Assembly (NCBI GenBank): GCA_029261195.1
Contig: JAJDBU010000063.1
Span: forward strand, 62,001 to 126,000
Direction of reading: 5' to 3'
From: Nitrospirota bacterium
Lineage (GTDB): Bacteria > Nitrospirota > Nitrospiria > SBBL01 > JAADHI01
DNA length: 64,000 nt
Under the pieces are notes generated by a model. The model saw nothing but the letters and a program-made list of their open reading frames with translations, searched no databases and was not told where the DNA came from. Positions 39,616 to 45,399 of this stretch are shown here, piece after piece (position 1 is the stretch's first letter; each line of letters opens with the position of its first letter). The translations under genes and the position numbers were made by a program.

Positions 39616-39643
39616 ATTTTTTTACCCGCCGAAAAGATGGCGC

Positions 39644-39673
39644 ATCTTAGCAGATGCAAAAAAAAAGTGTCAA
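39644..39673 (-). promoter_or_regulatory. Sigma70-like promoter of the M16 peptidase operon
   Basis: On the minus strand TTGACA (39668-39673), an 18-bp T-rich spacer and TAAGAT (39644-39649). A start near 39637 would give a short leader of about 20 nt before the ATG at 39615. Confidence 0.55.
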
Positions 39674-39741: not shown

Positions 39742-39770
39742 TTGATATCTCTTAAATTTAGTGCTACATT
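39742..39770 (+). promoter_or_regulatory. Sigma70-like promoter of the porin / metal ABC unit
   Basis: TTGATA (39742-39747), 17-bp spacer, TACATT (39765-39770). The start would be near 39777, with a 5' leader of about 140 nt before the porin ATG at 39917. The -10 hexamer overlaps the left half of the inverted repeat described next. Confidence 0.6.
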
Positions 39771-39787
39771 AACTAAATTAGTAGCAT
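39761..39787. promoter_or_regulatory. Candidate NikR operator (GTGCTAC-N13-GTAGCAT)
   Basis: Half-site GTGCTAC (39761-39767), 13-nt spacer, inverted half-site GTAGCAT (39781-39787); six of seven positions are exactly complementary. NikR operators are two inverted half-sites separated by about 13-16 nt, and delta/other lineages use GTGTTAC-like halves, so the layout fits. A third half-site GTAGCAT lies at 39812-39818, 31 bp from the second. The site covers the -10 element and start point, so binding would repress. A NikR gene is within the same unit. Confidence 0.6.
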
Positions 39788-39916
39788 GATTGACGATCTA
39801 AATATTTATACGTAGCATCATGAAGGTTTATCAAGATTAGATATACTTGTTGCTTATGGCACAGCATCAAGTATCGTCAGTCATTTTAAACAGACAGAAC
39901 TCATGAAGGGAAGCTT

Positions 39917-42232: not shown

Positions 42233-42256
42233 AAATACGGTATACTCGTAGTATAT

Positions 42257-42346
42257 CCCCATTAACAAGGGGGATTAAGGGGGATTTGAACTTAGATTGA
42301 AAGCCCCGGAACACATCCCCCCTGCCCCCCCTTTTCTAAAGGGGGG
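42257..42346. repeat. G/C-run inverted repeat (AAGGGGGATTAAGGGGGAT ... )
   Basis: AAGGGGGATTAAGGGGGAT (42267-42285 region) faces an imperfect inverse copy ATCCCCCCTGCCCCCCCTT (42316-42334). The right part also forms its own perfect 9-bp hairpin CCCCCCTTT-TCT-AAAGGGGGG (42326-42346). This looks like a small dispersed repeat (MITE/REP-like) lying between the binding-protein gene and nikR. It could act as an mRNA stabiliser or partial terminator within the operon. A second minor palindrome ATACT-CGT-AGTAT lies just upstream (42243-42255). Confidence 0.55.
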
Positions 42347-42366
42347 AAGAATAAAGAGGAGAACAA

Positions 42367-42783: not shown

Positions 42784-43686
42784 ATGAGTTCCTCTGAGCA
42801 TCCACCGCAGCCGCTGATTTCTTTTTCAAAAGTGACCTGCGGATACAAAGAAAAAATTGTTTTTAAAGATCTTTCCCTCATGCTTTTTCCCCGCCAGTTC
42901 GCCGGACTGGTCGGACCCAGCGGCGCGGGAAAATCCACCTTGCTCAAGGCGATTCTGGGCATTTCGCCAATCCTCTCAGGGAACATCACCTTTGCGGGAA
43001 AACAAGTCAATGGAAGCGTTCCGCCCGATGTCGGCTACGTGCCGCAGATTGAAACAGTGGATTGGGATTTTCCTGTCACGGTCGAACAGGTCGTTGCCAT
43101 GGGACTCTATCGAAAATCGACACGCCTACCCTGGTTGACGGGCGGGGAGCGAAGTGTCATTAGAGAGCTGCTTGACCGCCTGAATATCGGTCATTACGCC
43201 GAGCGACAGATTAAACTGCTTTCGGGCGGAGAACAACAGCGTGTTTTTTTGGCAAGGGCTCTGGTCGCCAATCCGAAACTCCTGATTCTCGATGAGCCGA
43301 CATCCGGCGTTGATGTTAAAACCCAACATGCCATCCTTCATTTACTCGGTGAAATCAACCGGAAGGGGGTGACGATTCTTTTAACGACTCACGATCTCAA
43401 TGCCGTTGCCCGACATCTGCCCTGGGTCATCTGTTTTAATCAAAAAGTCGTTGCACAGGGCGATCCCGACGAGGTTTTTACTTCAGAGGTGCTCTCTAGA
43501 ACTTATCAAAGCGATATGGCCGTGTTTCGACAGGGGGATGTCATGATGGTCGATGACAGCCCGAAAGCCGGGCATCATTTTGCCAAACATGTACATGGCG
43601 CAGACAGTCAAGATTATGGGCACCATCATACGTCGCACGAATCGCACGGACACCACGAATCAAACGAAGAAAGACACCGCCATTGA
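42784..43686 (+). CDS. Metal ABC importer ATPase with His-rich tail (ZnuC/MntB type)
   Basis: 300 residues: Walker A GPSGAGKS (44-51), Q-loop PQIETVDWDFPVTV, signature LSGGEQQR (146-153), Walker B LLILDEP (166-172), H-loop TTHDLN. The PQ.....DWDFPVTV stretch is typical of zinc/manganese ABC ATPases. After residue 260 an extra tail carries 13 histidines in 37 residues (HHFAKHVHG...YGHHHTSHESHGHHES), which could bind or buffer nickel or zinc in the cytoplasm. Start ATG directly after the nikR stop; stop overlaps the permease start (TTGA). Confidence 0.93.
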   Translation: MSSSEHPPQPLISFSKVTCGYKEKIVFKDLSLMLFPRQFAGLVGPSGAGKSTLLKAILGISPILSGNITFAGKQVNGSVPPDVGYVPQIETVDWDFPVTVEQVVAMGLYRKSTRLPWLTGGERSVIRELLDRLNIGHYAERQIKLLSGGEQQRVFLARALVANPKLLILDEPTSGVDVKTQHAILHLLGEINRKGVTILLTTHDLNAVARHLPWVICFNQKVVAQGDPDEVFTSEVLSRTYQSDMAVFRQGDVMMVDDSPKAGHHFAKHVHGADSQDYGHHHTSHESHGHHESNEERHRH

Positions 43687-44856: not shown

Positions 44857-45399
44857 ATGAGAACGACATTATGTCCTGAATACAAAGTAATGGTCGGCAA
44901 GGAAAGCGACTCCTTCCCTTTTTTTCGTTTCGGGAGGCATGACGAGACATCGCCGGAAAAAAAAGTTTTTCTCAGTTTTGTCCTGGGAGCAATCGCAATC
45001 CTCTTGTTGGTATTCGTGATGCCTGACACGACATCCGATCAAGCATCAGGTTTGGCCTTGAATAAACAAAAGGCTGTCACACGCTGGCAAGAGATCAATC
45101 ATTCTTCCTCGGCTTATATTATGGCGAGTATCTACGTAAGAGAACGCTTGAAATTTCCTGGTTCAGCGAAATTTCCGACTCTGTTAGAGGGGCAAGGAGA
45201 TCATGTGACAAGCCTTGGAAAGCAGCAGTATCACGTTGTTTCGTATGTTGATATGGAAGATGAATTTGGTCGAATGGTTCGTATTCTGTTTCAGGGAGAA
45301 ATAGAGCGGATAAAAGAAGATGAGTGGCGCCTAATCTCTCTTAACACACAGAGAGCAACAGAGGACGTGGTCATTTCTCTGAAAGCCTCTTCCAAATGA
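44857..45399 (+). CDS. Hypothetical membrane-anchored protein
   Basis: 180 residues, unknown family. A cytoplasmic N-terminus of about 36 residues, one transmembrane helix (VFLSFVLGAIAILLLVFVMP, about 37-56), then an extracytoplasmic domain (KFPGSAKFPTLLEGQGDHVTSLGKQQYHVVSYVDMEDEFGRMVR) predicted to be beta-rich. SD TAGGAGG at good distance from the ATG. The domain slightly resembles small proteins with 'LKFPSSAKFP' motifs found in diverse bacteria, function unknown. Convergent with the next gene. Confidence 0.65.
   Translation: MRTTLCPEYKVMVGKESDSFPFFRFGRHDETSPEKKVFLSFVLGAIAILLLVFVMPDTTSDQASGLALNKQKAVTRWQEINHSSSAYIMASIYVRERLKFPGSAKFPTLLEGQGDHVTSLGKQQYHVVSYVDMEDEFGRMVRILFQGEIERIKEDEWRLISLNTQRATEDVVISLKASSK

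Follow-up and report, generated by a model that had tools for sequence, protein, structure and literature searches.

Which signal controls the porin/ABC-transporter/nikR operon in the 64-kb stretch of DNA analyzed here (the window), and how is its promoter built? An earlier note on this DNA had placed a NikR-like operator over the promoter of this unit, and comparison with related genomes supports that proposal as a predicted site. We put the probability at about 0.9 that positions 39761-39818 form a NikR operator, made of three half-sites on the promoter of the operon, that would repress it with nickel. Sequence comparison establishes the half-sites, the constancy of their offsets, the overlap of the array with the promoter and its association with nikR. 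The retention of the three-copy array in relatives, despite flips of individual copies, points to a nickel switch whose half-site spelling and arrangement are looser than those known for NikR.

A predicted three-part operator in the window

Table 1. Predicted operator, promoter and operon genes of the window.
Feature	Position	Strand	Details
-35 element TTGATA	39742-39747	+	19 bp before O1
O1, NikR half-site GTGCTAC	39761-39767	+	Read directly; pattern search; matrix scan
-10 element TACATT	39765-39770	+	17-bp spacer after TTGATA
O2, NikR half-site GTAGCAT	39781-39787	-	20 bp after O1; pattern search; matrix scan
O3, NikR half-site GTAGCAT	39812-39818	-	31 bp after O2, 51 bp after O1; best conserved of the three
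Outer-membrane porin, OprB family, 440 aa	39917-41239	+	Pfam PF04966, 2e-38
Periplasmic metal-binding protein, ZnuA family, 319 aa	41273-42232	+	Pfam PF01297, 4.9e-72
nikR, nickel-responsive ribbon-helix-helix regulator, 138 aa	42367-42783	+	NCBIfam NF003381; Pfam NikR_C
ABC transporter ATPase, 300 aa, His-rich tail	42784-43686	+	Pfam PF00005
ABC-3 family permease, 317 aa	43683-44636	+	Pfam PF00950, 4.6e-65

Re-reading and a pattern search both recovered the inverted repeat of the earlier note, GTGCTAC-N13-GTAGCAT, with the half-site length and spacing of NikR, and a promoter scan agreed with our re-reading of the TTGATA-N17-TACATT promoter that it overlaps, the first three bases of the -10 being the last three of O1. 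The two half-sites are complementary at six of seven positions across their 13-bp spacer. The repeat alone is not significant, because the window holds 93 inverted repeats of the 7-N13-7 form with at most one mismatch, and this abundance is what speaks for a chance match. The triple at offsets 0/20/51 speaks against it: when scored with a matrix trained on other genomes, it is unique in the window (33.2 at 39761 versus 2.4 at the next best place), and none of 20 million random triples reached the same score. Three half-sites at these fixed offsets recur in seven promoters (below), and this conservation footprint rules out chance, to which we assign a negligible probability.

Degenerate half-site patterns were also searched across the whole genome from which the window comes. 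The N13 convergent and the N24 tandem patterns each match one place, which in both cases is the operator described here, and the N13 tandem pattern matches one place elsewhere, on contig C37. The N13 divergent and N24 divergent patterns have no match in this genome.

The regulator that would act on this DNA is encoded within the operon, 2.6 kb downstream as the earlier note had it, and its identity is borne out by both NCBIfam and Pfam. The protein scores 202 bits against NF003381 (cut-off 105) and has both the ribbon-helix-helix and the NikR_C domains, with R6-G8-S10 as its beta-strand residues. The four nickel-ligand positions, H78, H89, H91 and C97, are kept in all 187 NikR translations.

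Other features lie in and around the operon. A terminator-like hairpin on the minus strand (39641-39658) falls in the leader of a divergent M16 peptidase gene, and a G-rich/C-rich inverted stretch, the core word of which occurs once in the window, lies between the binding-protein gene and nikR (42255-42350). After the permease gene, a 180-aa frame (44857-45399) has no Pfam or NCBIfam match and no tblastn match in the 40 stretches from relatives described below.

Conservation of the three half-sites in relatives

We collected 40 larger stretches from relatives, chose 14 with the whole or part of the operon, and read their upstream regions; nikR itself is present in 113 of the 146 genomes of the kinship set. 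Close named relatives are Nitrospiria and Nitrospirota metagenome genomes, with Candidatus Manganitrophus more distant. Six operon promoters were aligned, namely those of the window, G001, G002, G004 and G006 (family f1) and that of G019 (family f7), and every offset was scored with a matrix trained on nikR promoters of other genomes. The best three offsets were 0, 20 and 51, with sums of 37.5, 58.5 and 66.8, respectively (99.9% maximum of the null, 12.4). The fourth-best, -19, is the -35 itself, with a sum of -22.7. Because the alignment was set in four of the six promoters by an O2-O3 pair noticed beforehand, O1 is the less biased test in those four, where it scores 4.2, 4.2, -0.1 (G006) and 2.9; offset 0 still ranks third of 221 offsets. 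A seventh promoter, L143 (taken as that of G003), fits with GTGCTAC, ATGGCAT and GTACTAC. Thus, the footprinting upstream of orthologous porin/nikR units that the earlier note had called for finds position and sequence kept in all seven promoters that could be aligned.

Outside the half-sites and the -35, agreement among the promoters is 0.26-0.51 and mostly about 0.3, the highest value belonging to two species of one genus. The -35 is TTGACA, 19 bp before O1, in five of six relatives; in the sixth (G003) it is TTGAC, one base closer. As read from the alignment, the -10 keeps the same register.

The third half-site, 31 bp on, had been reported in the earlier note, and the comparison supports it as meaningful; it is the best conserved in relatives. 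The window, G001 and G019 carry it on one strand and G002, G004 and G006 on the opposite one; in G003 it is GTACTAC, which is nearly symmetric. Could O3 instead belong to a second promoter, or to an RNA element of the 5' leader? The promoter scan of the window does detect TTGACG-N17-TAGCAT, the -10 of which falls within O3. As read from the alignment, however, relatives keep O3 and not this second promoter, which speaks against it, and an RNA element is disfavored because it would not tolerate the strand flips seen among relatives. Moreover, the word at O3 is the NikR word. We consider both versions quite improbable and take O3 as a third NikR half-site. A fourth half-site at offset 31 or 71 was not found, these offsets ranking 142 and 178 of 221.

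Some relatives lack the array. The upstream region of G007 has none, and four operons of the Manganitrophus order (L044, L046, L048 and L050) keep the transporter and nikR, with no array before the transporter gene. In L044 the nikR promoter carries ATAGCAC-N13-GTGTTAT. The transporter promoters of L046, L048 and L050 share RTGTTAGAAGGCA in place of a NikR array. Two genomes, G021 and G026, have the transporter operon and no nikR match, and their upstream regions contain no 20-bp pair.

Three side observations also concern the relatives. G017 has multiple nikR copies or fragments. Upstream of the porin gene of L061, half-site-like words recur every 20 bp (-57, -37, -17 and +3), the second of which is the -35 itself, TTGACAY being one base from a NikR half-site. 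In genus g2 (G002 C106, G004 C8, G006 C41 and G007 C143), a tandem N13 match, GTGTTAC...ATGTYAC, has an inner sequence common to all four places and is perhaps coding.

Half-site pairs before nikR across the phylum

In the class, 129 nikR loci yielded 108 distinct upstream stretches after removal of duplicates and of matches shorter than 100 residues. In 57 of the 108, two half-sites lie exactly 20 bp apart; over 200 shuffles the mean count was 0.005 and the highest 1. Adding 59 further loci gave a wider set of 167 nikR promoters, of which 92 have the strict 20-bp pair (64/118 in the class and 28/49 elsewhere in the phylum). Among the 75 promoters without it are those of f1 and f5 nikR genes located within the operon.

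These counts bear on the alternative that the operator serves another metal regulator, of the Zur, MntR or Fur type, with nikR a bystander. The binding protein encoded in the operon, which belongs to the ZnuA family and whose closest solved relatives bind manganese, iron and zinc, lends this some color. Against it, this word recurs with its 20-bp pitch before nikR in the 92 stretches just described, nearly all of them without the operon; the operons of the two genomes without nikR have no sites; and both the word and its spacing agree with the NikR prediction in the accessible part of PMC545781. We regard control by another regulator as very improbable. Several observations do stand against NikR as well: the Manganitrophus-order operons lack the array before the transporter gene, only 4 of 11 loci with an R-G-S NikR (below) have a strict pair, 75 of the 167 nikR promoters have none, O1 scores -0.1 in G006, no fourth half-site is seen on which a complete second tetramer could be seated, and the window genome shows little sign of nickel use (below).

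The half-site word is RTGYYAC, with position 4 a free pyrimidine. The earlier note had suggested that the one-base difference from GTGTTAC would define a lineage-specific code, and this does not survive the counts over the phylum sample. C fills position 4 in 91 of 128 half-sites of the class, compared with 13 of 56 from elsewhere in the sample, and both bases occur within one promoter (GTAACAC and GTAGCAC in L057). The accessible part of PMC545781 already gives GTGccAC for a Desulfuromonas NikR site. The one-base difference in these predicted sites is a bias of the class, not a lineage code.

Orientation varies too. Among the 92 pairs, 49 are convergent, 41 tandem and 2 divergent, and a quick NikR tree, read with branch support unused, calls for at least 18 changes of arrangement (7 of the upstream half-site and 11 of the downstream one). 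The ribbon-helix-helix head of NikR is a symmetric dimer, as is established for proteins of this fold, and the outer GT...AC of the half-site is identical on both strands. This would explain how spacing stays fixed as orientation varies, because a half-site flipped under such a head keeps the centre-to-centre distance. Near-symmetric intermediate words, GTATTAC and GTACTAC, are found in G002, G004 and G003.

In three nikR promoters (L096, L098 and L073), a third strict half-site lies 11 bp outside a 20-bp pair. On account of these outer half-sites we considered a lattice of 0/20/31/51 holding two abutting tetramers; it is a guess.

Which metal the transporter carries

Homologous loci were taken from named genomes as the best 80 of 308, and 36 of these 80 have nikR in the fetched flanks. 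We sorted the 80 by NikR residues 6, 8 and 10 and scanned 2 kb upstream of the transporter gene. Among loci with R-G-S, as in the window, the strict pair occurs in 4/11 and the E. coli word in 0/11, the remaining sites being degenerate or cut. Among those with R-T-S (from Nitrosomonas, Nitrosospira and further proteobacteria), 15/17 have GTATGA-N15/16-TCATAC when one mismatch is allowed (scrambled-word control: mean 0.03, maximum 2) and 0/17 the strict pair. Neither word occurs in the six R-S-S loci, which are archaeal, or in the one R-A-S locus and the one locus with a partial nikR gene. Loci without nikR in their flanks have the E. coli word in 3/44 and the strict pair in 0/44. We read these counts as two predicted operator words that follow one NikR beta-strand residue, G or T at position 8, before a single transporter family.

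Individual loci add detail. A perfect GTATGA-N15-TCATAC lies upstream of the ZnuA-type gene in L177, L181, L194, L199, L208, L213, L214, L205 and L200, which come from ammonia-oxidizing and other proteobacteria. In the archaeal homologs L167, L172, L201, L207, L216 and L153 (Nitrososphaera, Nitrosocaldus and relatives), nikR adjoins the transporter and has the R-S-S strand, with neither known operator word. In a family f6 genome (L066, 5290-9454), an ECF sigma factor, a ChrR-like cupin, nikR and a TonB receptor stand in series, nikR adjoining the TonB receptor.

The ABC transporter of the operon probably imports nickel as a system of ZnuABC (ABC-3) type, given the nikR genes near 36 of the 80 homologous loci and the E. 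coli-type NikR operator in 15 of 17 R-T-S loci. The main competing account lets NikR bind and has the transporter carry zinc or another metal, with only an indirect link between nickel and its expression. It draws on the binding protein, in which H63, H135, H201 and D276 are found in all eight aligned proteins, a set that presumably suits nickel or zinc and also occurs in zinc-binding relatives, and on the genome of the window, in which searches for urease and HypA found neither and no clear NiFe hydrogenase was seen. For PF00374 that genome gave only two weak matches, both in frames 414-426 residues long, which we infer to be complex I subunit D. The wider family tells against this account: urease is present in five of the seven f1 genomes searched, Nitrosomonas ureae (L208) joins a urea transporter, nikR, a TonB receptor and the ZnuA-type transporter in one cluster, and nikR flanks the 36 homologous loci noted above. 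On balance we think a zinc or other-metal transporter unlikely. The family is therefore likely to import nickel, whereas for the organism of the window, whose genome lacks urease and HypA, nickel import is putative.

A model for repression

When nickel is plentiful, one ribbon-helix-helix head of a nickel-loaded NikR tetramer would cover O1 and with it the -10, while its second head would sit on O2, two helical turns further along. RNA polymerase would thereby be shut out, and the porin, the transporter and nikR itself would be repressed. Repression by exclusion is the plain reading, since O1 covers the -10 and O2 lies near the presumed start. O3 lies about three helical turns (31 bp) beyond O2, and there a second NikR may bind and strengthen repression. 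This second tetramer would need to place its other head on non-specific DNA, because there is no fourth half-site at 31 or 71; it is the least certain step, for which we see a near-even chance.

Taken further, Nitrospirota NikR may read its half-sites largely independently of orientation, with the pitch strictly set at 20 and 31 bp and an operator of three half-sites, and the operon may represent a ZnuABC-type family of nickel importers common to Nitrospirota and ammonia oxidizers, wired to NikR through two words that follow one beta-strand residue. We hold this joint proposal tentatively, at somewhat under even odds. If the orientation-free, three-half-site part of it is true, a NikR assembly not yet described would be needed: either two tetramers, the second anchored through a single head, or one tetramer able to alternate between spans of two and three turns. 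The 167 promoters, with their flips at fixed positions, form a natural test set for how a two-headed ribbon-helix-helix tetramer reads DNA, in which sequences already at hand allow separate tests of orientation, of spacing and of the odd third site. Nitrifiers and their relatives may, in addition, have a nickel importer of a kind so far unlisted, and two NikR operator words would be tied to a single residue, G or T at position 8.

Comparison with known systems

Our literature search, a weak one because subscription papers lay mostly outside its scope, turned up nothing on NikR in Nitrospira and no description of NikR sites that are tandem or in three parts. As far as it reaches, three things are new: tandem pairs as a common arrangement, an operator in three parts and a ZnuABC-type transporter as a target of NikR. 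The beta-strand residues of the window NikR are those of Geobacter uraniireducens NikR, which reportedly has an Arg-Gly-Ser beta sheet, and work on that protein may bear on this operator.

The predicted deltaproteobacterial NikR sites, GTGTTAC-N13/14-GTAACAC in convergent and divergent forms (Rodionov 2004, PMC545781, as far as its accessible part goes), resemble those described here in the heptamer, except for the pyrimidine at position 4, in the 13-bp spacer and in the occurrence of convergent and divergent pairs. They differ in that tandem pairs almost match convergent pairs in number in Nitrospirota, in that the window operator has a third half-site 31 bp on, and in that its target is a ZnuABC-type transporter rather than NikMNQO. 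According to the accessible part of PMC5385501, one H. pylori NikR tetramer spans two helical turns with 20 nt between half-site centers; the distance is that of the window, whereas the H. pylori word is A/T-rich and each operator has one dyad. The E. coli operator, given as GTATGA-N16-TCATAC in the accessible part of PMC7055735, likewise has two half-sites about two turns apart, but uses another word, a strict inverted repeat and other beta-strand residues; with N15, the same word precedes the orthologous transporter in Nitrosomonas and relatives. Among the nickel transporter families named in the accessible part of PMC2667541, the ZnuABC type does not appear. The zinc importers ZnuABC and AztABC and the manganese importer MntABC share the fold family of their binding protein, ATPase and permease with the transporter of the window, which in contrast is linked to nikR and, in all three proteins, stays under the family cut-offs of its NCBIfam matches.
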